From IMG/VR virus record IMGVR_UViG_3300035670_001263, positions 1-23,500 of that record: DNA of 23,500 bases. One strand, written 5' to 3'. Of the stretch, positions 1 to 21,063 are shown piece by piece. This DNA comes from a virus. A program made the position numbers and the translations under genes. The stretch's first letter is position 1; every line of letters begins with the position of its first letter. The notes below the pieces were generated by a model, which saw only the letters and a list, made by a program, of their open reading frames with translations, was not told the DNA's origin and made no database searches.

Positions 1-3000
1 AGTTAAGGCGGAAGCTCTTTCGTTAAACTCTCTTATCTTTTGTTGATTTCCATTTACTGATATATTATATGACATAGATGAATTACTCGAGCCCATTCCG
101 ACTGAAGGAATATTTGGAGACCTAATTGGATATTCCTCATATGCTGAACCGCCAGGAAGAAGAGGTGGACCTTGAATATCTTCCTGTGTCCTATCGGTGA
201 AAGACTCATATAGGAAACTTCCAGCAACTAGAGCCCCTATACCGACAGCGGTTTTTCTTATTAGTTTATTTCTGAAAAGTTCCCTAAAATCTCCGTCATC
301 TAACTTATCCATAAACCTTCTATAATTAGAAGATACCCTTGATGCCTCAGAAACACCCTCAGCTGCATCATCTATACCTCTTCTAACTCTACTTCTGGCA
401 GAAGTTGAACCAGTATTTGGATCTGATACAGCCTCCGGGAAAAAGCTTAAATCTTTAGATTCTGCTTCAACTAAAGCCTGGGAAGCTCTTAGGGCATTTG
501 CCACAAACCTGGCATCTGCGCTAGCATTTGGATCGTCAATATATGCCCTTAATTGCTCAAATGCTTCTTCCCCATATCTTTTCAAAAGCTTATTAAGCTG
601 GCCCACCCTAGATTGCTGAGCGGGTGTTGGATCGGTACTCCTCTGTTTCAGCCTCTTTAGTGTACCTGCACTCCTAAAATCATCATAATCTCTCAACATT
701 TGCTTTATATACTCGGTTACGTCTTCGTCTTCCAAAGATTCCAAGGCTGACATTGCTTGATCTTGAGTTAGAACCCTAAATCCTAAAGGATAATCAGATG
801 GCTTTTTACCTACCGGAAGAAGTGGGGCTCCAGATATCTGTGATTCTCCAAGAACTTCGCGAGCATCGAAGCTCTTATACTGAACTGCTCTACCAATCAT
901 CTCACTTAAGATAGATGTATCTGCTGATTGTGCTGCGACTGTTAACTGTCTTAATCTTCTAGCGTCTCCGAGCTTAGTTATCAATTCGGTAATGCGATCT
1001 TGATCATCCGTTAAAACAGTTGCAATATCAAGTATATCTATACCTGCAGCAAAGCCTGATCTATCTAGTTCATTTGCTAGATCTAGAAGATTTACGCCAT
1101 GCTGGTCAATTGCATAAGCTATAGAGTGGTACAAGCTTTCCGCAACACCGAGTTTAGAAGTTTCTCTTGCTATGGCATCTATTTGGTCTTCCATTACTCC
1201 GCCAACAGAACTTCTTACTCTGTCTAACATTTTTTTATGATCATCTATTATTTGTTGAGCTATTCTTTCAGTCTTTGCATCAGAGGAAACGTAATTCAAA
1301 GATATGTCAGTCATGGCGTTTCTTGAACTAGAGAACTGCCTAGACATTGACTCTGCGAGCCTCCTGCTTCTATATGTTGTAGCATACTTGCCCTCTCTGA
1401 GGCCAAACCTTTCAACAAACATCTGCCTTTGCATTTGGGCTATATTAGCATTGGGGTCCGATGATCTTAAGTTTAAGATTTCCTCTAAATCAGATATTAC
1501 ACTTCTAGTCCTTTCTACACTTGCAATTCTTTCATCGTCAGCAGATGCCTCAAACGTCTGAACAAAATCCTGAGCTCCGGCTAGCATATTCTCCATTAAA
1601 CTCCTCATATCAGAATCGCTTAATCTTGAACTTCCACCCTTTACGGACTTCATTATCAGTCCAGCATCAAAGCCAATTCTCTGATCACCAACTCCAGATA
1701 TAGCTCCAATTAATCTGCCCACCTGGGCTACCATTAACTCCCCTCGTTGATCTGAGCCAAGCCCTTTAAGGGCTTCACTTCCTGGAGTTCCTGCTGCCAA
1801 TTGTTCAAGTATATTATTAATACTAATAACCGCACCGCCCTGACTTGCGGCAGATCCAACAGCATTGCCTATCTCTGACAGGGTCCTACCCATCTGAATC
1901 GCCGCGTCAATTGCCCCCTCCTGTCCCGCGTATAAAATTCTATATTTTGGAGTATCAAAATAGCTTAAAAGGTCAGCATTTGATTTTACAGTTCCTACTA
2001 AATCCTCAATCTGATTAAGAGCATTGCCGGCTATCATTGATCTATTGACATATCTACCAAGAATTTCTCCAGACTTTTCTGAATCAAGAAGTGTCTGTAC
2101 TTTAAATGCGTCATCCATAGCTATTTCCATCATGGTTTTGGCTGAATCAGAGGCACTTTCATACCTCGTATCTATCTCCCTCTGAAGCTCCATGAATATT
2201 TGATCAGGACTAATCTGAGCTGATCTCCTAGACTCCACAAAAGAAGAAAGACTTGAGTATATAGATCTCAGCTCATCATCTTGGTCTAACCTAGAAAGAG
2301 ACTGCAGTATTGGATCTGTCATATCTCCAGCTCCAGCGTTAAATAACTCTCGCCTAACAAAAAATGATGCGAACTCTGGATCATTCCTATTCAATGCACT
2401 AACCTGTAGTGTAGATCCGCCTCTAGCAATTAAATCCATGGTTTCCCGACCCAGAGTTGGACCCCCATATAACCTTGCTAAAATATTTTCTATATGCTCA
2501 CCAACAGTGCCCTCAGTATTTAAAGCTCCCAGCATCTGGGATCTTGTTCTACTTATTTGATTTTGAGTTTTTCTTTGAGTCGATTCAAGTATTCTTGAAA
2601 TATTTTCATTTTGATAAAATTCACCAGTTACAGAATTTCTTCTTAAAAAGAACAAGTTTTCTATAGCTTCGAATATTTGATTAGCTTCATCCTGAGTATA
2701 CGATAATGATCCGCCTGATAACTGCTGAAGTCTCGTTATTCTATCTTGACCTTGAAGATTCATCATTTCAACAATTTGATTCATGATGTCTTTTCTATTA
2801 CCAAAAATAGAATTTACAGAATGCGAATCTAGAATAGACTTTCCAAACATTACTTCTTCTATACCGCTAGGCTGTCTAGATATTAGAAAGCCAAAAGATT
2901 TCATGCCATTGGACTTTTCATAGGAGGAATAGTGAAGTAGCGACTTATCGTCAAGGTCAAAGCCACCAAGGACATGATGAAGTTTTTGAACATCTTCCGC

Positions 3001-5202
3001 TGCAAAGAGCATCCCATGACCTTTAAGTCTGAAGTTTACGACTTCACCAGATTGTCCGTTTGAAAGCTCAATTCTAGATCTTGTTGAAAGTCTACCCTCC
3101 CCACCCATAACAGCTTCCCCTCCAGTTGTCCATATATCTGAGGCGACTTCTGATAATGCTGAAAATCTATACGAGCCAGGAAGAGCAATTTGTAACTCAC
3201 CATCGTTAACTCTAAACGCATTAGTTTGCATGTAATTATGAACAAAGTTAACAAGCTGAGGAGCACTTCTCACATCTATACCACTCTGATACATCTCTAG
3301 TAACCTTTTTGCGTACTCTTTATTTCTCCTTGCTGAATCTCTTGCATAAGCTGGTAAGATATCTATTTCCTGAGATGATTCATGCTTTAGGGCATCTATA
3401 AGCTGAGGGCTTAACATTCCAGTTTGATCAAATGTATTCACCTGCGCTTGAAGCTCCCTAAATCTATCCATTACAAATTGTTCAGAACCTGGCGATTCTA
3501 AGTATGGACCAAGAAATGCACTAGTAACTTCATCTAAATAGACTATTCCACGAGATCTACCTAGTCCACTTATATTTAAACCTGGAACATCACCCGTAAA
3601 AGATGATTCAGGCTTAAGATCTGCAGTTGAAACGACAGCAACATAGCCCCTTCTTCTTAGTTCTTCGTCAAGATTAGAGGCTATAGTAGAAGATTTTACT
3701 TGATAAGTTTTACCATCATAACTTATACCTGCTCTAATAGTGTGCTGCTCAGGATTTGCTTCAAGTGCGTAGCCTATTGATGTCTTTTGATTCTTTAGGT
3801 CTCTTATTCTTTTCTGTACTTCTATTTTTTCTGAGGCACTAAGTGTGCCACTATTTATCCTAGCTTCAAGATCTGCTATTTCATTACTAATGGCTTGATC
3901 TATTCTGCCATAGAAAGATCTATCCCAAACAGAAAAACCATCAAACGCTTTAGTATTTCTATCAAAAATACCTTCAACATAACCTATTAATCTATCTCTT
4001 TGTTCTTCATTCCTAGAGTATTTTGAATTTATGTTTTCTATCATTTTTTGTTTTAGCTTTTCCCCAGTTATCATACTCTGATTCGACTGCATGTCGTCAA
4101 TCAAATCCTGGAAAGAAGATTCAACTATTTTTGTAAACTTGCTTAAACCACCATACTGTCTTTTCCTTTGAAACAATAATGGATCGTCATTTACCTCTTT
4201 AAGGAAGTCATCAAAAAACATTCCGACCCCCTTACTTTGTTGCTGAGAGCCGGCAAACCTTTCAAAAATTCCACCAACAAAATCCTCTATCACACCAGCC
4301 TGGATAAGCTGTTCTTCGAATCCAAATCTTCTAGCAAATAAATATAAATTTTCATCAAAAACAAAAATAGATGAATTAAGAAGTTGGCCAGGCGCAACAG
4401 CTCCACCTCTACCTCCGCCATACCCCCCCTGCCTAAGAATATTGTCTAACATCATTCCCGATAAGGAAACATCTCTTGGAGACTGTACGCCTCTAATTCT
4501 CTTTGGAACCTTAGCTAGTGCCTTAAGAAGTTTACCCTCTCTAAGTGCTCCCCCTTCACCAAATACTGTTTCTGCTGTTAGTGTTCCATGTCCAGCTAGT
4601 CTGAATAAGGCTTCGATTTGAATCTGATTTAACTTAGTCCCACCAGCTGTTTCTAATTGAACTAGACGCGCGCCTTCATCGTCAAAGATAGCAGAACCAG
4701 AAATCTCACCCTGTCTCAGCATCTCTGCTATACCAGAGGGATTAGCCCCTTGAGCCCTCTGGGTTTCACTAACCCTAAAGGTAACAAGAGATGACTTAAA
4801 TCTTCCATTCATTATGTCATTTAGGTCATCCTGCGATATTCCTGTAGCTCTAAGTATTCTCTGCTCCTCGCTACCAAAAGTTCTAGACTTTCTATCTATT
4901 GCGCCCATTATTTCAGATAAATATGCTAACCTGTCACCATGTCGAGCTTCTTTTCCTAGCTCGAAAAACTCAGTAAGAAATAGCGCATCTGATCTTTGCC
5001 TTGCTTGCTCGAGGGAGGGTAATATTTCTCCAGTTGCATTAACCCTGAATTGAAATCTGCCATCAGGAGAATCAACTATTGATATAAGGTTTCCTTGACC
5101 ATATCTAGTTTTAGACAATACAGACTCAGCGCCGACGCGAGCACGGCTAGCTATATTCATGAACATGTTTAAAAAATATTCGTAATCTAGACTCTCAGCC
5201 AT
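1..5202 (-). CDS. Giant virion protein, C-terminus beyond the left edge (at least 1734 aa)
   Basis: The frame is open without a stop from 5202 to position 1, so 1734 residues are visible and the C-terminus lies outside the window. I translated it directly; it begins MAESLDYEYF. An ATG directly upstream at 5205 is in frame. I prefer 5202 because GGAG in the preceding gene's end lies 7 bases before it and only 4 before the other. Either way the start overlaps the TGA of the 2206-residue gene, suggesting translational coupling. The protein is mostly polar and predicted helical, rich in Q, R, E, S and G. One clear hydrophobic segment lies near residues 1650-1665 (TAVGIGALVAGSFLY), followed by a Pro/Gly-rich stretch. 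I see no HExxH, lysozyme or polymerase motif. Placed after the probable tape measure, it could be a second tape measure-like protein, an ejected internal protein or a baseplate component. The specific function is not recognised; a structural role is inferred from context and size. Confidence 0.85.
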   Translation of the reverse strand, partial: MAESLDYEYFLNMFMNIASRARVGAESVLSKTRYGQGNLISIVDSPDGRFQFRVNATGEILPSLEQARQRSDALFLTEFFELGKEARHGDRLAYLSEIMGAIDRKSRTFGSEEQRILRATGISQDDLNDIMNGRFKSSLVTFRVSETQRAQGANPSGIAEMLRQGEISGSAIFDDEGARLVQLETAGGTKLNQIQIEALFRLAGHGTLTAETVFGEGGALREGKLLKALAKVPKRIRGVQSPRDVSLSGMMLDNILRQGGYGGGRGGAVAPGQLLNSSIFVFDENLYLFARRFGFEEQLIQAGVIEDFVGGIFERFAGSQQQSKGVGMFFDDFLKEVNDDPLLFQRKRQYGGLSKFTKIVESSFQDLIDDMQSNQSMITGEKLKQKMIENINSKYSRNEEQRDRLIGYVEGIFDRNTKAFDGFSVWDRSFYGRIDQAISNEIADLEARINSGTLSASEKIEVQKRIRDLKNQKTSIGYALEANPEQHTIRAGISYDGKTYQVKSSTIASNLDEELRRRGYVAVVSTADLKPESSFTGDVPGLNISGLGRSRGIVYLDEVTSAFLGPYLESPGSEQFVMDRFRELQAQVNTFDQTGMLSPQLIDALKHESSQEIDILPAYARDSARRNKEYAKRLLEMYQSGIDVRSAPQLVNFVHNYMQTNAFRVNDGELQIALPGSYRFSALSEVASDIWTTGGEAVMGGEGRLSTRSRIELSNGQSGEVVNFRLKGHGMLFAAEDVQKLHHVLGGFDLDDKSLLHYSSYEKSNGMKSFGFLISRQPSGIEEVMFGKSILDSHSVNSIFGNRKDIMNQIVEMMNLQGQDRITRLQQLSGGSLSYTQDEANQIFEAIENLFFLRRNSVTGEFYQNENISRILESTQRKTQNQISRTRSQMLGALNTEGTVGEHIENILARLYGGPTLGRETMDLIARGGSTLQVSALNRNDPEFASFFVRRELFNAGAGDMTDPILQSLSRLDQDDELRSIYSSLSSFVESRRSAQISPDQIFMELQREIDTRYESASDSAKTMMEIAMDDAFKVQTLLDSEKSGEILGRYVNRSMIAGNALNQIEDLVGTVKSNADLLSYFDTPKYRILYAGQEGAIDAAIQMGRTLSEIGNAVGSAASQGGAVISINNILEQLAAGTPGSEALKGLGSDQRGELMVAQVGRLIGAISGVGDQRIGFDAGLIMKSVKGGSSRLSDSDMRSLMENMLAGAQDFVQTFEASADDERIASVERTRSVISDLEEILNLRSSDPNANIAQMQRQMFVERFGLREGKYATTYRSRRLAESMSRQFSSSRNAMTDISLNYVSSDAKTERIAQQIIDDHKKMLDRVRSSVGGVMEDQIDAIARETSKLGVAESLYHSIAYAIDQHGVNLLDLANELDRSGFAAGIDILDIATVLTDDQDRITELITKLGDARRLRQLTVAAQSADTSILSEMIGRAVQYKSFDAREVLGESQISGAPLLPVGKKPSDYPLGFRVLTQDQAMSALESLEDEDVTEYIKQMLRDYDDFRSAGTLKRLKQRSTDPTPAQQSRVGQLNKLLKRYGEEAFEQLRAYIDDPNASADARFVANALRASQALVEAESKDLSFFPEAVSDPNTGSTSARSRVRRGIDDAAEGVSEASRVSSNYRRFMDKLDDGDFRELFRNKLIRKTAVGIGALVAGSFLYESFTDRTQEDIQGPPLLPGGSAYEEYPIRSPNIPSVGMGSSNSSMSYNISVNGNQQKIREFNERASALT

Positions 5203-8200
5203 CATCCTACTCCAGCAGAAATATTAAAACTATCATTTGTGAATGGGCTATAGTTTCCCCTGACAGAACCAGAAAGCCCCATGGAAGACATTAAACTTCT
5301 TAACTTATATAAAACATCTTGTCGATCTTCACCTGAATTATAGTCAGGATAAGACATATTAGCTAAGTTAGCCTGACGTATCTGTTGAGGATAGTAACCC
5401 ATTTGAGAGAGTTCAAGACCCATATGTTGACCTATTTTAATTTTTGTATGATCACTACTAGCTGCAGCTGACCACCCCTCCCAATTCTCATCCGGTAATT
5501 CATGCCTAGAGAAATATTCAACAAGATCTGGCTTCTCTTCAACCCTCATACCCCAGGCAGCTTGGTAGAACCTTCTTTCCAGTCTGCCAGATGTAGATAG
5601 AATTTTTTCTCTTTCTCCCTGATCCTGAGTTTCTATCATAGCTTTAAAATGCTCTCTTTTTCTTTTAGGTATTGCAAAAGCTAGCTGTTCTGGATCTCCG
5701 CTCTCAATATCTGCTCCGTACATAGTTCTTTTTGCAGCTTGTCGGAAATTAAAAGCTGATTTATAATCTCCTGCTGCCTGAGCTTCGGACGCAAGCTTTG
5801 TACTTCTGACGTATTCCAATATGTCGCCATATTCTTCTAGTGCTAATTCTTTTTTTCTTTCCAGGGGAATAAATCTATCACCAGTAACTGCCTCATAGGC
5901 GTTACCAAAAACTGAAGAAGTTAAACCAGCTGTAGCTCCAACTGCAGTACCAAAAAGTCTAGCCTTAGGTGTTCTGCCAAATAGGGCACCAACTGCACCA
6001 AGTCCTATAGTAGCTGTCAAAGGATTATCTTGTGTAGCCTTATTGAGCATTGGTTCGATATAACTCTCGTAAGGCCTTTGCCACTGAGGGAAAGTCGATC
6101 CGTATACGTTATTTCTTTCCCAGTCTTCTATTGCGGTTTTCTTGCCAAAAGTTTTATTGATAAGAAAATTATCCGTATGAGCTATGGATTCACCTATTCT
6201 ACCAACTGTATGTGCTGCCCTGGATATTCCTAGATCTTCAGCGCTATAGTTCTTGTAGACATAATCAGAAAAATCAAATTTAGTTGTGACATCTTCTTGT
6301 TGCCTTCTTATTTCTTCTATTTTTTCTCTCTCGGCAACGGATAAATCCATTCTGTCAACCATTTTATTTAATTGTCTAAACTGTTTTGAATAGGGAGCTA
6401 CATCGGCTAAAATATCTAATTGATTCACGGGACCATATGAACCACCATATAGGGTATTAAATCTCTCATACCCTACGCCAGGAAGTCTGACTTCACCCTG
6501 CTGAACTTTTGTAAATGGATCACCAGTCGTAAAATCTGTATAGTATTCTGGACCAGGAAGGAATGGATATTGTTGTCCCATTGTATTCTTAATTGGATTT
6601 AAATAATCTATGTTTGTTCTTTCCTTAGGTATGAATCTTCTAACTATTTCAGAAAATTCCAAGTTACCAACGTCAGCTCCGCCAATAGGAATATCACCAA
6701 GACCTCCAAGATTTAAATCCCAAAATGACCTTGTAGAACCATATGCCCTTGACGCAGGTTGTAGTACAGATCGTTGAGGCTCAAAATCCCCCTGACCAAA
6801 ACCGAGTGACTGCCTAAGACTAGAGAAAGCGAAACCATATATACCTGCCATTTCCTGGAGCCTGTAACCTATATCACCAGTCTGATATGTAATATTAGAA
6901 GGCGACAGTGGTTCACCAGAAGGAACTATATTAGGAACCATAACTCCCGTAGCCTTAGGTGCACTAAACATTACGGGAGCAGAATACCCATACTGTGACA
7001 TCTGCTGATTTTGGTTACCAATCGAGGATCTCACGCTTGTACTAGCTGTACTGAGTACGCCAGCTTGAGAGGCCATTGCTTGATTATAATTTCCTATCTG
7101 AGAAGAAGCTGACCCAGAATACAGTCCTGCGCCCACTAAAGATGAATTACCTACTTGATTAGATATAAGACCAGATATTCCACCATACGCAGCAGTATTA
7201 AAAGCTCCAAATTCACCAGCTGGCGCATACTGAGCAAGACCTGCCTGCAGCTCCTCTTCATGCATCATTGCACGAGGTTTGAGAACTCTACCTACTGTCG
7301 CATTTAGGATGGGTGTTAGAGGGCCAAATGGACCCGTAAAATAGTCACCAGATACAGGATAAGGTCTATCGTTATAGTGCTTTCTTTCAAATCTATATGG
7401 ATCCAAAGGTCTTAAGGGTGATATATCGTTATAGAATAAGAACTTCTCCATCGGACTACCGTATGTGTCGGAAGTGAAACTTGGAGCTTCTTTCAGCATT
7501 CTATAGTATGATGGGCGATAATACATGGTATTACCTCCCATAAATGGTGTATTGCCGAGTGGCCAAAATCTACCCTTCCTAATCGGAACTTCACCTTCTA
7601 GTAATTGCTCCCTCTTTTCGGTGTAGGACATCCCGCCAGGCATTAAGCCAGCCATAAGTGAGTGAATTTCTGCTGCTGTTCGCGCAGCTGCAGTAGTAAC
7701 CATAGGGGTGTAAACCCTTTCACCCCTGTCGTCTCTCTCATTATATATGTATCCACCCAATATTCTATCAGCAGTCAATGCCGTAACACCCGCTGCATAC
7801 AGGGGTAAAACTCTACTTCCAACCATTCCTCTAGTAAAAAGATCTAATGGACCAGAAAAGGCCGAAACATCTAATTGAAGACCTATAGAACCAAAATACC
7901 TATTTAATCTTTCCACACCCTGAGACATCGGAATACTTCCACCAGAAAAATACTCAGGATCTGAATAGGTAGTAAACCCTGCTGCATTAAGCGTAGCCCT
8001 CATTGGGTTTCTAGCAAAGACCGTGCCAAAAGTTGGAACGAGAGTAGACCTCTGACCGGATCCAAGTGGATCTGTAGCAAGTTCGTCTATTTGATAAGGA
8101 GCAACTCCGAAATTTTTCTTAAGAGGAGAAAGTATGGGAGATAGTTTTCTTCTAACAGATGTTGATATTTGACTAATTGAACCATCTATATATGGATCAA

Positions 8201-11822: not shown

Positions 11823-11832
11823 ATTAAATCCC

Positions 11833-12462
11833 CTATCTCATGCCCCACAATTTTTGAGCAATGGGATCACCCATTCCTGCTGCTCCCTGAGGTTTAGCCT
11901 TGTCATGCTTTTCAATTTTTTCTTTAATCTTATTTTGCTCTTCTTCAGGATCTATTAATTCAAGAGATATTCCAGAGTATTGAACACCATTCATAGCCTG
12001 TCTTATTTCTATAATTTTTTCAGACAGAGCAACGTGTTGCGCTAACTCCGAAAAAGTCATGTCCTCAAGATCTTCAGGAGTATATGATGTAATAGTAGCT
12101 AAGACAAAGGCTTTCATTAAATTTTTAACTTCGTTAGATTCTATTCTCTTTTCATCTAAAATAGACTTAGCTATTTTAGGACTAAAAAATCCAGATAAAT
12201 CTAATATTTCCTGAGCCAGTATAGAAACTGTACCAGCTGGTATTCTTGATAGATCAAAATTCTCTGGCTCAACGACTGCGCATGATATTATCAAGTCTTC
12301 TATATCTGCTGACGATAAATTTTCGTATTCTTGATGATAAATAATGGTATTATATTCTTTGAATGTTAGCTCTCTAAATATAAAATTAATATTTTTTATA
12401 TTTACGCTATAAAGTTTACCGTATTTATTTTTAAGATCGAATATTTTACTAGCATCTAACAT
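11833..12462 (-). CDS. Tail assembly chaperone-like protein, long paralogue (209 aa)
   Basis: This gene sits directly before the giant tape measure candidate, where tail assembly chaperones are normally found. Residues 1 to about 105 form a domain shared with the upstream 184-residue protein: a YG-(L/V)-Y motif, R-x-L-xxx-EY-xx-I, a Cys followed by a Pro-containing segment, and AG...S(I/L)AQE(I/V)L..SGF. The remaining 100 residues are an extension found only here. It includes TSYTPEDLEDMTFSELAQHV, which resembles the helical region of tail assembly chaperones of Gram-positive-type phages, and ends in a charged, Lys/Glu-rich tail. Start ATG at 12462 is three bases after the preceding TGA, so translation is probably coupled. 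The pair resembles the short and long chaperone forms that other phages make by ribosomal frameshifting, but here they are separate genes. Chaperone function is inferred from domain likeness and position. Confidence 0.8.
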   Translation of the reverse strand: MLDASKIFDLKNKYGKLYSVNIKNINFIFRELTFKEYNTIIYHQEYENLSSADIEDLIISCAVVEPENFDLSRIPAGTVSILAQEILDLSGFFSPKIAKSILDEKRIESNEVKNLMKAFVLATITSYTPEDLEDMTFSELAQHVALSEKIIEIRQAMNGVQYSGISLELIDPEEEQNKIKEKIEKHDKAKPQGAAGMGDPIAQKLWGMR

Positions 12463-12465
12463 AGA

Positions 12466-13020
12466 TCACAGTTGTCTAACCTCAAGGGCAACGAAACCAG
12501 ATGCTTCGAGAACCTCCTGAGCAATGAGAGAGGGTACACCGGCCATCAATCCTGACACATCTCCATTCTCAATAGTTGGATACAGTATACATGTCTTAGC
12601 TACTACTTCTTCATTCCACATATTTGCCTCTGCCGAAGTGAGTTTGCCAGATTCTACTAATTGCTCCATCTTTTTAACTATCTGCTTATATTCCATTCTG
12701 TTAAGAACTCTCCATATGATATGATGATCATAAGAAACTGAAGTAACATAAACTTCGCCATACTGCTGCTTCCACTCTTTAACCATACCTGCAGTAGGAC
12801 CGTTGTCCCATAAGGTTTCTGAGTCATCCAAATCTTCTACCATTACAGGGTCATCATTCGAGCCTGGATCAAGATTAATATCAATAATTTCTTCATCGGA
12901 ACTAGAATCTGGAATATAGATGTCTTCTATTTCGACATCTATACCTTGCTCATTCAAATTATCAAACTCAAACATATCTGAAGAACCTTCTGTTACAATA
13001 ACTCTTTTATCATTAGACAT
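12466..13020 (-). CDS. Tail assembly chaperone-like protein, short paralogue with acidic N-terminus (184 aa)
   Basis: The first roughly 75 residues are strongly acidic and probably disordered (many Asp, Glu and Ser). Residues about 80-184 form a domain paralogous to the first half of the next gene's product, sharing YGEVY, RVLNRMEYKQI, a Cys followed by a Pro, and AGVPSLIAQEVLEASGF. It stops just after that domain and lacks the C-terminal extension of its paralogue. The ATG at 13020 has a strong AAAGGAG site at 13026-13032, five bases away. The gene is preceded by the best promoter in the window, so it probably opens a transcription unit that includes its paralogue and both giant proteins. 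A role in keeping the tape measure soluble or recruiting tube subunits is inferred. An alternative is a minor structural protein. Confidence 0.78.
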   Translation of the reverse strand: MSNDKRVIVTEGSSDMFEFDNLNEQGIDVEIEDIYIPDSSSDEEIIDINLDPGSNDDPVMVEDLDDSETLWDNGPTAGMVKEWKQQYGEVYVTSVSYDHHIIWRVLNRMEYKQIVKKMEQLVESGKLTSAEANMWNEEVVAKTCILYPTIENGDVSGLMAGVPSLIAQEVLEASGFVALEVRQL

Positions 13021-13041
13021 AAAAACTCCTTTAAAATTAAA

Positions 13042-13070
13042 ATTATATCACATTAAATAAAATATCTCAA
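13042..13070 (-). promoter_or_regulatory. Sigma70-type extended -10 promoter for the chaperone and giant-protein genes
   Basis: On the minus strand a -35 element TTGAGA (13065-13070) and a perfect -10 TATAAT (13042-13047) are separated by exactly 17 bases. A TGA directly precedes the -10 box, giving an extended -10 element. Transcription would start near 13035, leaving a short leader with AAAGGAG before the ATG at 13020. It lies in the 51-base gap after the third tube gene and is the closest match to the bacterial housekeeping consensus I found in the intergenic gaps. No terminator is visible between it and position 1. Confidence 0.7.
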
Positions 13071-13071
13071 A

Positions 13072-14004
13072 TTAATAAACCGGAGGCATGTTATACACAG
13101 TAGATACGGGATCTATTGATGCCCCAAATTCGTCAAGTCTATAATCATATTCTGATAAATTAAGAGTAGGTATTCTCTTAACAAAAGAAAGATCAACTTG
13201 AGAGAAATAAAAATCTCTTGCCATAAACTGATATGTTTCCAAAACTGGCTGACCGCCAGCAGAGTAGGCTGTTCCCATTGTCATTAAATTAACTTGCTGC
13301 AGGACAATTTTCATAGGTCTTGAAACATCATCAATTCTTACATTTCTCTGATTAACATCTGATATATTTATTCTATCTAAATCATCTGATATATTTTTGG
13401 TTTCACCCTGCAAAAGGAATCTTGAACTAAGAGCTGTCTCTTCTGCTCCATATAGAATTATAAAATTAAAAGGCGGGTGCGCACTGAAAATATTATTAGT
13501 ATTAATTTCATTTGTAGCCGGATCAGATGTCACCCTGTCTAATTGGCTTATCGACCAGTATTTTTCTAAGTTTAATTCATCTTGAGCACTTTGTGCCTGC
13601 GATGTCATTCTGGTTACTGTGGAACTCTTAGATAAAGAAGTTCTAGATTTATCCGATTGTCTATTAACTGCTGCCTTTTCGAGAAGATTCGTCATCCTTC
13701 TTGGGTCCTTAGTGAAAACACTAAACTCTCCTGTGACTATTCTTGTGCCGTACATGATGGCATCATAGTTATAAGACCAGTACCCATATATAGGAGCCTT
13801 TTGCTGCTGAACAGAGTAAGCAAAGGTTGCTATATCTAGCTCGTCTTCTGCATCGAAGAGTCCATCAATATATATTTTTACATCTTCACCACTAAAGAAG
13901 TAATCAAAATAATTTGAAGGCCTTCTATCGTAGTCCCTTCCACCACCAGACCATTTTCTATCTATATTTTTAGAAAAAATATCAACTGGTAAATCATTTG
14001 CCAT
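13072..14004 (-). CDS. Divergent tail tube paralogue (310 aa)
   Basis: The third of three adjacent paralogues with a tube-protein pattern. It retains the block order of its relatives: FFSGEDV (36-42), KAPIYGYWSYNYDAI (69-83), GTRIVTGEFSVFT (86-98), HPPFNFIILYG (176-186) and YQFMARDF (258-265). It differs by an N-terminal extension of about 15 residues, an insertion rich in Ser, Thr, Gln and Asn between about residues 110 and 170, and a longer segment between the last two blocks. The canonical PPFD becomes PPFN. Start ATG at 14004 follows the previous stop by 21 bases with AGGT upstream. Its position next to the chaperones and its extra elements suggest a specialised tube end, for example a baseplate-proximal ring, rather than the repeating tube subunit. 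That role is inferred. Confidence 0.78.
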   Translation of the reverse strand: MANDLPVDIFSKNIDRKWSGGGRDYDRRPSNYFDYFFSGEDVKIYIDGLFDAEDELDIATFAYSVQQQKAPIYGYWSYNYDAIMYGTRIVTGEFSVFTKDPRRMTNLLEKAAVNRQSDKSRTSLSKSSTVTRMTSQAQSAQDELNLEKYWSISQLDRVTSDPATNEINTNNIFSAHPPFNFIILYGAEETALSSRFLLQGETKNISDDLDRINISDVNQRNVRIDDVSRPMKIVLQQVNLMTMGTAYSAGGQPVLETYQFMARDFYFSQVDLSFVKRIPTLNLSEYDYRLDEFGASIDPVSTVYNMPPVY

Positions 14005-14025
14005 ATCTGGAATACCTATCTTTAT

Positions 14026-14790
14026 TTAAAGTCGAATCGGGGTAATGGGATCTACGTAGATAGTAGTTTGAGAAGCAAGATTGTCTTTTTGATCCTGCTG
14101 GTAAAATTGATCTTTTATATCCTGATCTACATCATCTCCAAAAATATTTAAAGATATTTGTAAATCTCTTGCTATTGATTCTGGATCAATGCCTGGATCA
14201 TTAACTGATGGATTTGAATATTTAACTAAAGGCTGAATACCTCTTGCCATGTAAGTGTATGTCTGCTCAGTTATTAGATCGTCTATAGAAACAGTTTGCC
14301 CCTCATCCACTATCGTCATGCCCAGTAACTTCATTTTTGCCATGGAGCCATATTCATTTGCAAAAGTTATGACCATATCAAACGGTGGCAACATGTCTGC
14401 CAAGGGAGCAAAAAAACCATTCTGTCTACCCAGTAGATCTCTATACTCCCTTATCTTATAGAAGGCATACTCGTCAAATACTGTGAATATCATGCTCCCA
14501 GCTATAGTTCTGCCACCTTTTATAAAACTTTTTGGATTAACATGCCCAATAGTTCTTATTGGCGAATTTTCCCTATGTATAGAATATGATATAGTCTGCA
14601 ACTCGCCTAGAGTTATAACTTCTCCCGTGTATCTAGAATTTCTAGGTGTAGAACCTATTGGAGGAAGTATAATAGTTGCTACAGCATCTGCACCAGAGAA
14701 AGAAACATTACTATTTATATAATCTGTAGACAACACATTGTTTTGACCTACGGGGTCATTATTAGCTACTCTATATACTTCAGTTGTCAT
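14026..14790 (-). CDS. Tail tube protein paralogue, minor form (254 aa)
   Basis: This is clearly paralogous to the 226-residue tube protein upstream. Shared blocks are FSGADA (31-36), ENSPIRTIGHVNPKSF (74-89), IAGSMIFTVF (96-105), LPPFDMVITFANEYG (134-148) and YMARGIQPL (180-188). Differences are an insertion of about 18 residues after the first block, loss of about 35 residues between the FTVF and PPFD blocks, and a longer acidic C-terminal tail. Its ribosome binding site AAGGAAG (14794-14800) directly abuts the T-run of the upstream terminator, so only transcripts that read through would express it. A lower copy number than the 226-residue protein is therefore expected, consistent with a cap or initiator ring of the tube. 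The paralogy is seen directly; the minor role is inferred. Confidence 0.85.
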   Translation of the reverse strand: MTTEVYRVANNDPVGQNNVLSTDYINSNVSFSGADAVATIILPPIGSTPRNSRYTGEVITLGELQTISYSIHRENSPIRTIGHVNPKSFIKGGRTIAGSMIFTVFDEYAFYKIREYRDLLGRQNGFFAPLADMLPPFDMVITFANEYGSMAKMKLLGMTIVDEGQTVSIDDLITEQTYTYMARGIQPLVKYSNPSVNDPGIDPESIARDLQISLNIFGDDVDQDIKDQFYQQDQKDNLASQTTIYVDPITPIRL

Positions 14791-14800
14791 AATCTTCCTT

Positions 14801-14835
14801 AAAAATATACACGGGGGCGTTAACCCCCGTGTATA
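14801..14835 (-). terminator. Rho-independent terminator or attenuator after the first tube gene
   Basis: A perfect 12-base-pair stem (14806-14817 pairing with 14824-14835) with five consecutive G-C pairs at the loop end and a six-base loop is followed on the minus strand by five T residues (14801-14805). It lies 25 bases after the stop of the 226-residue tube gene. There is no T-run on the plus-strand side, so it acts only in the direction of the genes. Because the next genes are tail genes with no visible promoter of their own, it probably works as a partial terminator that lowers their transcription. Confidence 0.88.
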
Positions 14836-14860
14836 CTACAAGTTATCTAATTTTATTAAA

Positions 14861-15541
14861 TCAGGGTCTGATTATATCAGTATTAAGCTGCGTAGTACGC
14901 AGACTCGAAGCTAATACATCACTAGGAATCATATCATTTATGTCTATTGTATACATTGGACCAAGTTCTCTGGCAACATATGTCATAGTTTCTTCTAAGA
15001 CAATGTCGTCCATGGAGGCACCCGAGCCCTCATTTAGTAATTCAACACCATAAATAGATCTGACTGCTGCCTGACCATATTCATTAGCAAATGTTATAGT
15101 AATATCAAATGGGGGTATTTGATCTGCGTAGTAGGGAACCTTTGACACAACACTTGTATTATCGTCCTCTACATTAGCGATTCCTCTGCTTTTGTAAGCT
15201 GTATCTCCTGGTAATGCGTTATGAGCTCTAGTGTAGAACTGATGGGCATTTGGATCTTTTGTTATATTCTTATCCAACATAGTATAGAGAGCTGGTCTGT
15301 CAAATACTGTGAAAATAAGTGATCCAGCTATACCTCTCTTGCCTCTTGAAAAGGATCTGGGGTTAGGCGAACCCATTGTATATATAGGAGCCTTTTCCCT
15401 GGTAACAGAGAAGGTTATGCCAGAAAGAGCCCCTATTTCTACGCCACCAAAGCTGGCAACGATGTCTGCCCCAGAAAAGGTAGTGTATGTATTCAGATAC
15501 TTATCAATATCTGGATTAGATGTAGTGTTATTTGTAGCCAT
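14861..15541 (-). CDS. Major tail tube protein (226 aa)
   Basis: It directly follows the canonical sheath gene, the usual place of the tube gene in contractile-tailed phages. Conserved blocks shared with two downstream paralogues are FSGADI (22-27), KAPIYTMGSPNPRSF (50-64), IAGSLIFTVF (71-80), PPFDITITFANEYG (143-156) and YVARELGPMY (188-197). The alternating hydrophobic strands fit the beta-barrel fold of tube subunits, which stack as hexameric rings around the DNA path. The ATG at 15541 has a strong GGAGGG site six bases upstream, and a terminator follows the gene. Both fit a highly expressed structural protein at the end of the main sheath-tube transcript. It is the shortest of the three paralogues and most likely the repeating subunit; that assignment is an inference from position, compactness and expression signals. 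Confidence 0.85.
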   Translation of the reverse strand: MATNNTTSNPDIDKYLNTYTTFSGADIVASFGGVEIGALSGITFSVTREKAPIYTMGSPNPRSFSRGKRGIAGSLIFTVFDRPALYTMLDKNITKDPNAHQFYTRAHNALPGDTAYKSRGIANVEDDNTSVVSKVPYYADQIPPFDITITFANEYGQAAVRSIYGVELLNEGSGASMDDIVLEETMTYVARELGPMYTIDINDMIPSDVLASSLRTTQLNTDIIRP

Positions 15542-15565
15542 TATTTACCCTCCAACGGTAATTTA

Positions 15566-16837
15566 TTATAATGATATTGAAACCTGGATTTCGATATTCT
15601 TCAATTCGAATGCAGGTGTTAAAACGAGGTCAACTATCGCCTTATTTTGATTTGCAATGTAGGTAACAGAGAAATCACTTGAAAGAACGGCACCTAAAAG
15701 TTGCATACCTCTTAACGCAGATGAAATAGCTGTCTCCATTGCGTTTCTTGTTTGAAGATTTGAAGGTTGCCCAACGAACTTCTCACATTGCTGTCTAACC
15801 AAGCGCGCTGCCTCATCTATAATTCTCTTAGTTGATAATCTTGTATAATCTGATGTTGACTGAGCGAATGTAAGACTTTCGCCATATACAGCAGCGCTGT
15901 TGAAGTTAATCATTACAGTATTTACACCCTTGTCAGATAGATTTGTTCTCTGAGTTCTGGTTGGGGAATATCTCAAAGACTGCACATTATACACAGGCTG
16001 ATTAACTAATGATGTTGTAGATTGCATTCTAGTTATAGCAGCTGCTACATGAGCAGCACCGTTTGAATAACCAAAATCAAAACCACCAGAATTAAAGTTG
16101 ACTGGCTTAATTTCAGCTGCAATCACAACTACATATGGACCGACTTCCTTAAAGAGGTCTGAACTATCTCTGTCTACAAGATTCGTTAATGAAAGATGAG
16201 ACGAAACTTGAGCTGGTGTCATGTTCTCTGCTGGATTTGTCACATATGGCTTAACACCAAGAACTGCAATACATGGGAATGTGTCTTCGGAAATTCTCTT
16301 AGCCTGTGCCCCAATCTTATACGCAAAGCTCTGTGCAGCGGTTGCACTATTATCAGCATAGAAGCCGAAACCAGGCTCATCACCTGAAGGTGTTGCCGCA
16401 GATAGATTGGGATCATCATAGTCTACAGGGTGAGCACCTCTACCCCAGGCTAGAATTGAACTTGGTCTTGTTGATTCAGCGGCATCAAATGCTGCATCCA
16501 TAAGCTCATCTGCTGAACCACCGAAACTTGCGCTTGTTATAGTGCCAGATGAATAATCGAAAACAGTATCACTTGGAAGTGGTACTAAGAAGACTCTTTC
16601 TGCTCCAGCTAAAACTAATTCAAGAAAAGCCTTGTGAAGATCTGATCCTTCGCCAAATGCTGCTATTACATCAGCCTCATTTGTAGCCCTGAAAGCTGAT
16701 AGATCTGCTGCACCTTCTGTACCATCGGCTGTTGAACGCTTAGCGACAGCGACAACTCTTGGACCTGGTGTTGCAGATGATCTTGCAATCGTGTAAAAAC
16801 GATCTCTTATTGTTGTTGTTACTCCTGGTATAGCCAT
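15566..16837 (-). CDS. Tail sheath protein (423 aa)
   Basis: The sheath forms the contractile outer cylinder of the tail. The sequence opens with the typical MAIPGV start and a segment TPGPRVVAVAKRST (about 23-36), then a region on filling a ring of subunits (DVIAAFGEGSDLHKAFLELV, AGAERVFLVP). The C-terminal third has the usual sheath pattern: LSDKGVNTVMINF, STKRIIDEAARLVRQQCEKF, and a last strand pair NKAIVDLVLTPAFELKNIEI near the end, the part that threads into neighbouring subunits. Start ATG at 16837 is preceded by GGAGGTC at 16848-16854 and a closer AAGAG. The 107-base AT-rich leader is the longest intergenic gap in the window and may carry a promoter. The tube gene follows after 24 bases. 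This is the most standard of the two sheath proteins and probably the main one. Confidence 0.92.
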   Translation of the reverse strand: MAIPGVTTTIRDRFYTIARSSATPGPRVVAVAKRSTADGTEGAADLSAFRATNEADVIAAFGEGSDLHKAFLELVLAGAERVFLVPLPSDTVFDYSSGTITSASFGGSADELMDAAFDAAESTRPSSILAWGRGAHPVDYDDPNLSAATPSGDEPGFGFYADNSATAAQSFAYKIGAQAKRISEDTFPCIAVLGVKPYVTNPAENMTPAQVSSHLSLTNLVDRDSSDLFKEVGPYVVVIAAEIKPVNFNSGGFDFGYSNGAAHVAAAITRMQSTTSLVNQPVYNVQSLRYSPTRTQRTNLSDKGVNTVMINFNSAAVYGESLTFAQSTSDYTRLSTKRIIDEAARLVRQQCEKFVGQPSNLQTRNAMETAISSALRGMQLLGAVLSSDFSVTYIANQNKAIVDLVLTPAFELKNIEIQVSISL

Positions 16838-16944
16838 GTTCTCTTAAGACCTCCAACTATGGATAATGAAATCTTTCAATATAGTAACAATAAACTTATA
16901 AAAACAAACGTAGAGGCTATCTAAACAAAAAAATATATATAAGA
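16838..16944 (-). promoter_or_regulatory. AT-rich leader of the sheath gene, possible promoter
   Basis: This is the longest gap between genes here. Two weak sigma70-like candidates are visible on the minus strand: TAGATA (16918-16923) with TATAAG (16895-16900), spacer 17, and TTGTTT (16902-16907) with TATATT (16878-16883), spacer 18. Neither is close to consensus and one may be chance in AT-rich DNA. A seven-T run at 16928-16934 follows the upstream gene but has no stem before it, so it is not called a terminator. Confidence 0.35.
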
Positions 16945-17829
16945 TTAATCTTGACTAGGAGTCGCAGTTTGATATAGATCGGTTATTGTAAGATCTATAT
17001 CTCCAACACTAGGAGTAGCCTGCTCATAATCCCTTGGGTCACCAGCAAGCCAGGTCCTGGCATCGATGGCTATCTTCTCGAGTACGCCATGAGGAGCTGC
17101 AAAAGTCTTTTCTGTCGTCAACATGTATTGAAGACTTTTTCTTATAATATCTTGATCATTTCTAGTTATTTCTACGTCTGCCAACCTTCTTGCAAACACT
17201 AACTCCGATGCGCCTATCATTTTAAATATTGGAGTCATTTCTATCATAAAGTCTTCAAAACGATCTATAACCTGCTCAGTTATGGAGTATGCTTCTTCGG
17301 CCAAACTCCACCCTGGTGAATCATCTTCTACCAATTTTATCTTTGATAAAACATTAAAATTTATTATGCTTTGAAATTTTTGACCATATATAGTGTAGTA
17401 TCTATCTTTTTTTTGTGTAAGACTTCCATCAGGTAGAAATTCCTGAGACGACTCTGAGATTAAAACATTTTGCCTCATTCTTGGCTTTGGCTCTCCGGTG
17501 TGAGCTTTTTTCTGTGCTACTCCATAAGTAATTATAACGTTATATTCATCAAGCACTCCCACAGAGCCAACAGGCGAAACAGCATCGCCTTCAACCACGG
17601 CGAATGCCTGCCTAGCGGATGCCATTGGTAGTATCGGTATACTTGGATAAACTTCTTCCCACATTTTTTTAATAACAGAAACAAATTCTAAATAAGAAAG
17701 TTTTCCATCATATACTTCCTTAATTCCATTTAAATCAAGTATTTTTCCTGGAGATTGACTAACTTCTTGATGTATAGGCTGAGGCCACATTCTTTCAGAA
17801 GTACTTTTGAACTCTCTATTTAAATACAT
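16945..17829 (-). CDS. Probable tail terminator or tail completion protein (294 aa)
   Basis: The gene lies between the two sheath paralogues and after the head-closure gene, where tail terminator or neck proteins usually occur. Residues about 140-225 contain YYTIYGQKFQSIINFNVLSK, EEAYSITEQVIDRFEDFMIE and IGASELVFARRLADVEITR. A beta strand, then a helix described by 'E..I..FEDFM', then a Gly-Ala-containing strand is the layout I associate with terminator-type proteins that cap the tube and join it to the head. The N-terminal 100 residues are less typical and include a predicted helical stretch with KKMWEEVYPSIP. Start ATG at 17829 comes one base after the previous TAA with GAGGG upstream. The assignment rests on layout and position; no exact family match was recalled, so an unknown neck protein is possible. 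Confidence 0.75.
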   Translation of the reverse strand: MYLNREFKSTSERMWPQPIHQEVSQSPGKILDLNGIKEVYDGKLSYLEFVSVIKKMWEEVYPSIPILPMASARQAFAVVEGDAVSPVGSVGVLDEYNVIITYGVAQKKAHTGEPKPRMRQNVLISESSQEFLPDGSLTQKKDRYYTIYGQKFQSIINFNVLSKIKLVEDDSPGWSLAEEAYSITEQVIDRFEDFMIEMTPIFKMIGASELVFARRLADVEITRNDQDIIRKSLQYMLTTEKTFAAPHGVLEKIAIDARTWLAGDPRDYEQATPSVGDIDLTITDLYQTATPSQD

Positions 17830-17830
17830 T

Positions 17831-19423
17831 TTACGCCCTCGGTCCTGCTGCTACTGAGAAATTTACAGACTTTAATCCTAAAGATGAAATTAGATTTATG
17901 TTAAATATTAAACTTTTCTCCATATTGCCAATAACCTGTACATCAAAAGCGTAATCTATGACTATATTATTTTCTTTATAAAAATTCAACAAATTAACGA
18001 CTTTTTCAACTACCTTATCGTAAGAAAACTTACCCACAGCATCCTCTGCAAAGACCTTAACTTCATTCACGCAGTTTGTAACTAGTCTCATTTGAGCCAA
18101 CTTAGAATATACACTATCGCTTCTAGCTAAGGTGTATTCGTTTGAAAGATAAACTTCATAAGGCGCGTTTCTTTTAGACTTTGGCCCCCTATAAGCGAAG
18201 TTTATACCAACCGAATCAAGCTTCTCATACTGAGACTGATTTAGGGAAGCGCTGTTGATAGAAAGTGCTCCAGGTATTCTTTTTCTTATCATAGAAATGT
18301 TCAATGGACTGGAGGATATCATACCCGCAACAACGGGTGATAAAGAAGAGGTATAAGATGAAGCTATAGTTGAATGCTTCATGGTTACCTCACCATAAAC
18401 AGGAACTATAAATCTTCCAATATCAGAAGAAATGCTTCCCAATGAATTATATGAGGTTAATTTGTTATTAAATAGATCAGATTGATAAATTAAGTCTACA
18501 TCTTCCGACCTTATTCCTCCAGACCTTGTTCCGATTACACCAAGCTGAACAAATCCGGTTGAATTATGAAAATCATAACAATACTGAGCCAACTGAGTAG
18601 CAAAGTCTACGTCTCCACTTTTAAGGAAAGAAACTTCTAACGGAACAACTATATCTATAAAATCTAATTCCTTTATAGCATCATAACTAATTTGCAGTCT
18701 TTCATAGTATCTTTCATAAAAAGTTTTTCCTGATGGAGTTGAAGAATCATCTAAAAATAAAAGTTTTTGATTCCTGTCTTCGTACCTAGTTACGTATTCT
18801 GACATAGGAGCTGCAGCCATCACAACTATATCTCTAGCACCAGCTCCGTAGGCATCTAAGAAGCCCCTTAGAAGAGGAGAATCAATATCTGCACCTAGTG
18901 CGTTTATCGCATCCTGAGCTGTCCTTGCAAAAACTGGATTATTTAAAGGTATATTATCAGAATGTCCTATCAGTAAAATTGTAGATGTTGTACCTCTACC
19001 CATTGACTGATAAAGTGATTTAAAATTTGATATTGCTGAAGACGCACTAGATATATTTATTGGTTTTAGGCTTACAGGTTTATTCTTAACCTGAAACTTC
19101 GATAATAATCTTATTTCCTGAATTGGATCAGATGTTTGACATACTACGGTATAAACTCCATCTAAATAATCCTCAGAAACTGAATAGGTAAATCTATATT
19201 CCCCGCTTCCGACCCTTTCTATTAGAGCTGGTCCCGACGGCGTGGTATCTTGGTTAAGGTAAGAATATGGACCATCTATTATCTGACCATCGCCATAATC
19301 TCCGCGAACGACAGTGAAATATATATCCTTTGGAGTAGATTGCTCTAGTGGATCAAAGGAAGATCCCTGATTATAAAAAACAAATCTCATAGAGATTGAA
19401 GAGCCTGCATCGACAAGTAACAT
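17831..19423 (-). CDS. Tail sheath paralogue with N-terminal Ig-like domain (530 aa)
   Basis: Residues 1 to about 112 form an Ig-like beta sandwich (AGSSISMRFVFYNQG, a VGSGEYRFTYSV strand, DGVYTVVCQT), related in pattern to the N-terminus of the 297-residue connector protein. From about residue 120 the sequence follows the sheath layout: GRGTTSTILLIGHSD, a DAINALGADIDSPLLRGFLD segment, AGARDIVVMAAAP, and a C-terminus with SKLAQMRLVTNCVNEVKVFA, then IVIDYAFDVQVI and a final strand ending GLKSVNFSVAAGPRA. I choose ATG at 19423 rather than an in-frame TTG at 19447: the ATG lies one base after the stop of the upstream gene with AAGAGAGA before it, while the TTG would overlap that gene by 23 bases. 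Sitting before the terminator gene and far from the tube genes, it may form a neck-proximal collar ring or decorate the tail. That role is an inference. Confidence 0.85.
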   Translation of the reverse strand: MLLVDAGSSISMRFVFYNQGSSFDPLEQSTPKDIYFTVVRGDYGDGQIIDGPYSYLNQDTTPSGPALIERVGSGEYRFTYSVSEDYLDGVYTVVCQTSDPIQEIRLLSKFQVKNKPVSLKPINISSASSAISNFKSLYQSMGRGTTSTILLIGHSDNIPLNNPVFARTAQDAINALGADIDSPLLRGFLDAYGAGARDIVVMAAAPMSEYVTRYEDRNQKLLFLDDSSTPSGKTFYERYYERLQISYDAIKELDFIDIVVPLEVSFLKSGDVDFATQLAQYCYDFHNSTGFVQLGVIGTRSGGIRSEDVDLIYQSDLFNNKLTSYNSLGSISSDIGRFIVPVYGEVTMKHSTIASSYTSSLSPVVAGMISSSPLNISMIRKRIPGALSINSASLNQSQYEKLDSVGINFAYRGPKSKRNAPYEVYLSNEYTLARSDSVYSKLAQMRLVTNCVNEVKVFAEDAVGKFSYDKVVEKVVNLLNFYKENNIVIDYAFDVQVIGNMEKSLIFNINLISSLGLKSVNFSVAAGPRA

Positions 19424-19424
19424 T

Positions 19425-19796
19425 TTATTTCTCTCTTGTAGCTCCAACTATCCAATAAACAATCTTACCCATTCTACCACGAACAGGTGTAGAAATATCA
19501 ATTGTATATATAGTATAATCTCTAACTATACCCATTCCTAGATCTTCATATATTCTATCACCTTCTCTTGGAGCTACTTCAGCTTCAAAATAGTAGACCA
19601 TATCATAATTCGCATTGATGCCTTCCAATCCCTCTTGTGCGGAAGTGGCATTTCTAGTTCCAGTTTGACCAACGTGGCGAGTTGTATATTTTTCTAACGT
19701 TTGAGAATAGTTACCGTTTTTCAACTTCCTTTGAATGCTTACGTCGTGACCCCATTCTCTTAAGATTTTTCTAAAATTCTTTTTAAGATCAATCAT
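19425..19796 (-). CDS. Head-closure or head-tail joining protein (123 aa)
   Basis: A small beta-rich protein with features of head-closure (stopper) proteins: an N-terminal helix with RKILREWGHDVSIQRK, a middle disordered loop (residues about 45-62), a strand MVYYFEAEV followed by PREGDRIYE (76-84), and closing strands KIVYWIVG. The 'EGDRIYE' turn is typical of this class, which seals the portal-adaptor channel after DNA packaging and gives the tail its docking site. The start ATG overlaps the end of the previous gene by eight bases. The order adaptor-like gene, this gene, then tail proteins matches the standard head-to-tail arrangement. Confidence in the class is good; the exact family was not identified. 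Confidence 0.8.
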   Translation of the reverse strand: MIDLKKNFRKILREWGHDVSIQRKLKNGNYSQTLEKYTTRHVGQTGTRNATSAQEGLEGINANYDMVYYFEAEVAPREGDRIYEDLGMGIVRDYTIYTIDISTPVRGRMGKIVYWIVGATREK

Positions 19797-20697: not shown

Positions 20698-21063
20698 TTA
20701 CACTAGACTGATGTCGAAAGTACTCTCTCCTGATGGTTGTACATAAATTGTTTCAGCTTGCAGAATTGCTTCAGCCTCTTCTTCTAGAACATTGAATGCG
20801 ATATATCCACTAGCATCAGGGTCCTCAAAGGAAATTGTGGCTGATGTTGTTGTTACAACTTCTGAATCAGAAGGTAGTATTACTTTATTTATACCGACAA
20901 ATATTATACTAGTATCTATCGATATAGGGCTTATTAGGAAAGCTGCTAATACTTTAGAATTTCCAAATGTATTAGATAAACCTATGGATTCAGGAGTTAC
21001 AACTCTTACACCATCATAACGAAAACTTGGCTCGTTATAGCTTAAGATTTCGTTATAAATCAT
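20698..21063 (-). CDS. Small predicted structural protein of unknown role (121 aa)
   Basis: I do not recognise this family. The sequence is beta-rich with many Ser, Ile and Val, without signal peptide or membrane segment; it contains IISPISIDTSIIF-like strands (residues about 42-56), a PSDSEVVTTTSATISF strand pair and an acidic stretch EEEAEAIL. The composition fits a virion decoration or neck protein. ATG at 21063 follows the fibre-like gene by 15 bases with TAAGGA as ribosome binding site, and the connector gene follows after 15 bases, so it belongs to the same transcript. Confidence 0.65.
   Translation of the reverse strand: MIYNEILSYNEPSFRYDGVRVVTPESIGLSNTFGNSKVLAAFLISPISIDTSIIFVGINKVILPSDSEVVTTTSATISFEDPDASGYIAFNVLEEEAEAILQAETIYVQPSGESTFDISLV

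Follow-up and report, generated by a model that had tools for sequence, protein, structure and literature searches.

The jumbo Pseudomonas phage PaBG, of the Lupandier group, has two tail sheaths that arose by gene duplication and are 38% identical (PMC7412058), as well as two annotated tubes, and two sheaths are mentioned for other jumbo phages too (PMC7412058; PMC9230969). Bacillus phage G carries one sheath and two paralogous tail-tube candidates, gp179 and gp180 (PMC8570332), whose paralogy we could confirm by profile comparison, and Hardies and colleagues described gp143 and gp144 of phage 0305phi8-36 as a two-gene G/GT chaperone system whose second gene has hardly any ribosome site (PMC2147016). 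In extracellular contractile injection systems (Afp/PVC), a single particle combines several paralogous sheaths with several paralogous tubes (PMC12961389). Here we report an analysis of the tail module on the complete IMG/VR contig IMGVR_UViG_3300035670_001263, a fragmentary metagenomic contig of 23,500 bases (hereafter the window), which encodes two sheath-type, three tube-type and two chaperone-type proteins. An initial annotation of this DNA had implied that such a set is rare; given the two sheaths of PaBG, the two tubes of phage G, the two-gene chaperone of 0305phi8-36 and the Bacillus phage vB_BauM_KLEB27-3 (OM634661), whose record lists, in matching order, two sheaths, three tubes, two small genes and giant structural proteins, this was wrong. 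The duplicated set of sheath, tube and chaperone is already known, old and widely shared within a known phage group. What is new is a signature in each set that appears to separate a bulk copy from low-copy ones, together with a promoter-like motif found at sheath 1 only.

We consider it probable that the window holds a contractile-tail module of the 0305phi8-36/KLEB27-3/MTATph1 type, from a large-genome phage, in which each set comprises one bulk copy and specialised copies made in low numbers. The genes lie on the minus strand throughout, with 0 tRNAs, and are transcribed in the order small gene, repetitive fibre-like protein, small gene, adaptor-like gene (AD), head-closure-like gene (HC), sheath 2 and terminator-like gene (TERM), then sheath 1, tubes 1, 2 and 3, chaperones 1 and 2, giant protein 1 and giant protein 2, the last running off the contig end (Table 1). 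The gene coordinates of the initial annotation were all correct. Sheath, tube, chaperone and giant tape-measure-type genes are thus present in the window itself, and the capsid genes of this phage type are found in relatives: the window stops short of the head genes, and a major capsid gene is present on 11 of 15 contigs of relatives. An extracellular contractile injection system, which has no capsid, is ruled out by the major capsid gene in the genomes of these relatives.

Relatives were taken from scans with tube 1, which gave 291 and at least 535 matches, of which 80 were kept from each; the surveyed loci are related to each other, so that counts are not independent, and some contigs recur under two locus identifiers. 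Over 100 complete loci in a profile survey share a single gene order (HC, sheath 2, TERM, sheath 1, tubes 1-3, chaperones 1-2, giant protein 1), and the search for the same set in related phage genomes, which the initial annotation had proposed, was successful, the set being conserved in about 160 related IMG/VR loci and in the named phages MTATph1 and KLEB27-3. The closest contig (L006) carries an identical set with mostly 72-87% identity in the core. Metagenome-assembled genomes matched with tube 1 belong to bins of unrelated phyla and fix no host. With tubes 1, 2 and 3 orthologous and in order after the sheath, the window belongs to the KLEB27-3/MTATph1/0305phi8-36-type lineage, and with a second sheath between HC and TERM it falls within the KLEB27-3/MTATph1-type two-sheath subgroup. 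Moorella phage MTATph1 (OR602862) shares the order from HC to the giants and the identical position of sheath 2, and in KLEB27-3 the tubes and chaperones are orthologous to those of the window, although tube 1 is only about 53% identical, the second sheath is barely alignable and giant protein 1 corresponds to two separate genes.

The evidence for a division between bulk and low-copy genes comes from two expression proxies, the predicted pairing of the Shine-Dalgarno site with the 16S tail (SD, in kcal/mol) and the G+C content of third codon positions (GC3), each compared in 51-58 distinct relatives. Median SD among the relatives is -10.2 kcal/mol for sheath 1 vs -3.7 for sheath 2; -9.8, -6.4 and -3.9 for tubes 1, 2 and 3; and -7.4 for chaperone 1 vs -2.8 for chaperone 2. 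Within individual loci the direction is nearly invariant, the SD of sheath 1 being stronger than that of sheath 2 in 57 of 58, that of tube 1 stronger than tube 2 in 56 of 56 and than tube 3 in 52 of 53, and that of chaperone 1 stronger than chaperone 2 in 51 of 51. GC3 agrees in direction (sheaths 57/58, tubes 1 and 2 51/56, tubes 1 and 3 51/53, chaperones 50/51). The major capsid gene, used as a control, combines an SD of -10.3 in 11 of 11 genomes with the highest GC3 (0.44). Each set therefore has one marked copy (sheath 1, tube 1, chaperone 1), in which nearly all relatives pair a strong ribosome site with a high GC3; the remaining copies look low-copy.

A further mark singles out sheath 1. 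The conserved motif TTGTTTTTATAAGTTTATTGTTACTATA precedes this gene in the window, where its single site compares with 0.01 expected, and among loci L005-L091 and the window its core, TTACTAT[AT], lies upstream of sheath 1 in 85 of 86 and upstream of sheath 2 in 1 of 87; it occurs almost nowhere else in the tail module. From its position and conservation we read the motif as a putative promoter. A standard sigma-70 scan gave no excess of sites and missed the motif, which is visible in the alignment. Several relatives also have similar cores shortly after their major capsid gene, on its downstream side.

Both sheath-type proteins noted in the initial annotation are sheaths by PHROG, and sheath 2 is so by predicted fold as well. 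The AlphaFold2 model of sheath 2, with a mean predicted local distance difference test score (pLDDT) of 82, starts with an Ig-like sandwich (residues 1-115), from which a disordered linker leads to a sheath core; its best Foldseek matches in the PDB are all sheaths (phage 812, E 1.8e-14; AFP; Listeria Lin1278; T4), followed mostly by Ig domains. Direct comparison of the two sheaths is weak (Smith-Waterman Z 4.5, about 19% identity over 333-356 columns), and the link is barely seen with profiles of few sequences and better with deeper ones. Comparison of a sheath-2 profile with the single sheath of relatives gave a firm match at 99.2% (E 9.7e-20, 347 columns), and MTATph1 CDS0019 aligns with both window sheaths across one and the same domain (E 3.5e-17 and 8e-11). 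Two viral UniProt entries of sheath fold that sheath 2 also matches, A7KUR1 (530 amino acids, aa) and A7KUR3 (717 aa), lie two accession numbers apart; they may be the two sheaths of 0305phi8-36, in which case that phage would have a second sheath one gene from the first. An in-frame TTG lies 24 bases upstream of the sheath 2 ATG at 19423.

The setting of the two sheath genes differs consistently. Sheath 2 directly adjoins its neighbours HC and TERM or overlaps them, the gap to TERM being mostly 1 or -1 base across relatives, whereas sheath 1 is preceded by a gap of about 100 bases. AD is the first gene of this tightly coupled neck unit, overlapping HC in 86 of 86 relatives; homologues of HC are MTATph1 CDS0016 and KLEB27-3 gp022, and orthologues of TERM are MTATph1 CDS0018 and KLEB27-3 gp024. 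For TERM, no solved relative was found, PDB sequence profiles giving no match. HC and TERM are both readable in 170 loci, of which 145 have sheath 2 by profile and 11 more have an open reading frame of about 340 aa in its place; nine of these were examined and are sheath-like by profile (E 2.5e-28). In the other 14 of the 170 loci sheath 2 is truly absent, HC abutting TERM with no gap, and the branch with a single sheath retains three tubes and two chaperones. Such a tail can be built without sheath 2, since these 14 relatives lack it. On the sheath-1 tree its presence or absence needs one change, though the split itself is without support, and on the sheath tree, which is poorly resolved, a single clade of sheath 2 is not rejected (approximately unbiased test, p-AU 0.267). 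No second sheath was found between the neck genes of Acinetobacter phage ME3 in the profile survey.

The domain decoration of the sheaths is swapped among relatives. In the window it is sheath 2 that bears the Ig domain, sheath 1 (423 aa) being bare; in MTATph1-like phages (L119-L139) a bare sheath 2 of about 350 aa accompanies a sheath 1 of mostly 760-1050 aa, MTATph1 itself having a sheath 1 of 769 aa and a sheath 2 of 357 aa with no room for an Ig domain. Because the MTATph1-like sheath 2 is too short for it, the Ig domain is not the core function of sheath 2. A recent sheath duplication of the PaBG kind is ruled out by the identity of about 19%, where the 38% of PaBG marks a younger duplication, and by the PaBG tail proteins 00070 and 00072-00077, which gave no profile match to window proteins.

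The three tube-type proteins are paralogues as the initial annotation had supposed, with tube 3 distant. Tube 1 is the most conserved member of the set, 73-87% identical to its IMG/VR orthologues; tubes 1 and 2 match by profile at E 1.6e-35 with about 42% identity, and by BLAST each is about 35% identical to orthologues of the other. Tube 3 matches the tube 1 profile at 57% over 69 columns, and its MTATph1 orthologue, CDS0023, matches both tube 3 and tube 1; the KLEB27-3 orthologue is gp028. The best PDB matches of the tube 3 model are nearly all tail-tube or Hcp proteins. PDB sequence profiles gave no match for the window tubes, and the phage G tubes have no detectable profile similarity to them. 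In a tube tree the proteins of ME3, which has equivalents of all three, of KLEB27-3 and of MTATph1 sort with tubes 1, 2 and 3 into three groups, the ME3 placements resting on long branches. From this tree the tube duplications look older than the split from Acinetobacter phage ME3, KLEB27-3 and MTATph1. The tube copies are retained across phages of Moorella, Bacillus and Acinetobacter, and each copy in the window forms a separate orthologous group, which bears out the suggestion that the copies are specialised rather than redundant. An unrelated fold in the second sheath or the tubes, named beforehand as what would overturn that suggestion, was not encountered: in Foldseek, sheath 2 is sheath-like and tube 3 tube- or Hcp-like.

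Several further observations concern the tubes. A fourth tube-type gene is present in nine surveyed loci, and two adjacent tube-3-type genes make four in L024, L062, L065, L066, L068, L070, L071 and L084. In one branch (L131, L132, L134-L136, L139-L141 and L178) tube 2 is enlarged to 800-1370 aa and tube 1 stays at about 220 aa, so that tube 2 bears a very large extension. The tail tubes of the lineage carry the label 'major head protein' through PHROG 9206 (phrog_9206), including ME3_30 in NC_041884, which suggests that this label on tube proteins of the group in public records is a mislabel. The annotated start of MTATph1 CDS0020 (L001 20898-21530) is apparently 150 bases late, the GTG at 20898 having an SD of -11.9 vs -0.1 for the annotated start. 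Between tubes 1 and 2 MTATph1, unlike the window, has an S-adenosylmethionine decarboxylase gene (L001 21578-21934).

The two chaperone-type proteins are likewise paralogues, through a common domain of about 90 residues (E 2.6e-10, Z 13.9). Chaperone 1 is the equivalent of 0305phi8-36 gp143 by position and by homology via ME3_33, and as in that phage the window has a two-gene chaperone with a common domain and no programmed frameshift (PMC2147016). In phage G the chaperone gp182 is instead a joined two-piece gene sharing its start with gp181, a frameshift form. A programmed frameshift as in lambda G/GT is ruled out here, since the window has no overlap and neither gap nor frame is conserved across 80 relatives; stop read-through, for which the two genes lie in the same frame and one codon apart in the window, is ruled out by the varying frame among relatives. 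The two giant proteins, which the initial annotation had counted as copies, are not paralogues (profile probability 0.1-3%). Giant protein 1 is of the 0305phi8-36 gp145 type and homologous to ME3_35.

How such a tail might be built can be outlined as follows. Sheath 1 and tube 1 would build the long contractile sheath and tube; chaperone 1 would act like lambda G, and chaperone 2, with the common domain and an extra C-terminal part, would be the GT-like form made from its own gene with no frameshift. Tubes 2 and 3 would most likely be single rings adapting the tube to its ends, at the baseplate or terminator. Sheath 2, translated with the neck genes and probably in small amounts, would most likely form one or a few rings at the sheath-neck junction, with its Ig domain pointing outward or toward the collar. 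In phiCD508 a C-terminal strand of the terminator pairs with the terminal sheath ring and replaces the usual sheath mesh (PMC11948020), and a sheath-fold intermediary at the neck is therefore plausible. The contracted sheath of phage G, which has one sheath, detaches from the neck, and a missing upper anchor has been proposed (PMC8570332). We tentatively suggest, as a possibility that we hold with less than even confidence, that sheath 2 is a dedicated low-copy ring of sheath fold that locks the contractile sheath to the neck, an upper anchor that many large-genome phages have kept and that has so far been recorded as an uncharacterised protein. In the literature we found no published description of a second sheath placed in the neck unit or of a consistent bulk/low-copy signature. 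The findings bear on how large phages anchor a long contractile sheath at the neck and adapt their tube ends; the occurrence of relatives with and without sheath 2 in an otherwise identical gene order makes the role of the second sheath testable, and the bulk/low-copy split yields predictions for virion proteomics.

Several points weigh against a division into bulk and low-copy genes. The SDs of KLEB27-3 are nearly all strong and ME3 lacks the pattern, so that the asymmetry is shown for the lineage of the window and in part for MTATph1. Both SD and GC3 are proxies, translational coupling can offset a weak SD, and the relatedness of the loci is carried into every count. The predicted model of tube 3 is of low confidence (pLDDT 52), the putative neck roles of HC, TERM and AD derive from position and weak family matches, and the tube-end roles are proposed for a tail whose baseplate genes lie beyond the contig. 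Folds, paralogy, orthology, gene order, the asymmetry of expression signals and the promoter-like motif are observed; from them we infer that the specialised copies are few per virion and where each ring would sit.

The alternatives differ in how much of this they accommodate. The initial annotation offered a tail built from different segments, in which sheaths and tubes would co-assemble in long segments or mixed rings to give regions of differing stiffness or contraction. Every copy keeps its fold and has been retained over deep divergence, and the Afp sheath is polymerised from Afp2, Afp3 and Afp4 and its tube from Afp1, Afp5 and Afp7 (PMC12961389). Long alternating segments are nonetheless disfavoured and we regard this arrangement as unlikely, since the consistent split of strong and weak SD and of GC3 in each set and the motif at sheath 1 only mark one bulk copy, and since sheath 2 can be missing while the rest is intact. 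Also unlikely is a low-copy sheath 2 placed elsewhere, in a baseplate-proximal ring or as an outer collar or decoration bearing the Ig domain. Its PDB matches include a sheath chain of the AFP baseplate map (6rao_E, E 2.8e-12), and binding to sugars of the cell surface is conceivable for the Ig domain, a role suggested for Ig domains of other sheaths (PMC9230969); against this, the gene always lies between HC and TERM, translationally coupled to both, and the sheath 2 of about 350 aa in MTATph1-like phages has no space for an Ig domain.

The other suggestion of the initial annotation, that a complete ancestral tail module was copied and the copies then acquired new roles, would account for several part types being multiple in one operon, but is very improbable: there are no two tandem, parallel modules, the giants are unrelated, divergence is unequal (tubes 1 and 2 about 42% identical, the sheaths about 19%) and the second sheath is absent from a branch that keeps three tubes and two chaperones. 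Judged from the sequence comparisons, the families are duplicated in place, at different depths. As for a chimeric contig or a chance resemblance of folds, which a fragmentary metagenomic contig might invite, the same gene order recurs in about 160 other contigs and in isolates; because the set is so widely conserved, the copies are not an assembly artefact or chance, and we give this explanation practically no weight.

Table 1. Features of the tail module and neighbouring genes in the window
Feature	Coordinates	Strand	Basis
Fibre-like virion protein, 622 aa, repetitive, Ser/Thr/Gly-rich	21079-22947	minus	phrog_6002 E 2.8e-25
Adaptor-like putative neck gene AD, 297 aa, N-terminal Ig/BatD-like domain	19789..20682	minus	BatD-like N-terminus E 2e-4; neck role proposed from position
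Head-closure-like gene HC, 123 aa	19425..19796	minus	PHROG virion structural E 9e-4; exact role proposed from position
Sheath 2, 530 aa, N-terminal Ig-like domain, weak ribosome site	17831..19423	minus	PHROG tail sheath E 1e-8, AlphaFold2, Foldseek, profile match
Terminator-like putative neck gene TERM, 294 aa	16945..17829	minus	PHROG virion structural E 1e-7; role proposed from position
Promoter-like motif, conserved, ahead of sheath 1	16880..16907	minus	1 site in window vs 0.01 expected
Sheath 1, putative bulk tail sheath, 423 aa, strong ribosome site	15566..16837	minus	Pfam DUF2586 + Phage_sheath_1C; PHROG tail sheath; SD -10.0
Tube 1, putative bulk tail tube, 226 aa, strong ribosome site	14861..15541	minus	KLEB27-3 orthologue annotated tail tube; SD -9.8
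Tube 2, tube paralogue, 254 aa, intermediate ribosome site	14026..14790	minus	Tube 1 profile match E 1.6e-35; own orthologous group
Tube 3, diverged tube-fold paralogue with insertions, 310 aa, weak ribosome site	13072..14004	minus	Tube/Hcp fold matches; 69 columns with tube 1
Chaperone 1 (G-like), 184 aa, stronger ribosome site	12466..13020	minus	Domain in common with chaperone 2
Chaperone 2 (GT-like), 209 aa, almost no ribosome site	11833..12462	minus	SD -2.7
Giant virion protein 1, 2206 aa	5202..11822	minus	Homologous to ME3_35, MTATph1 CDS0026, KLEB27-3 gp031+gp033
Giant protein 2, at least 1735 aa, off contig end	1..5205	minus	Candidate tape measure by position (0305phi8-36 gp146)

Upstream of the neck unit, the fibre-like protein is about 53% identical to its counterpart in the closest contig, vs about 81% for the neighbouring neck genes.

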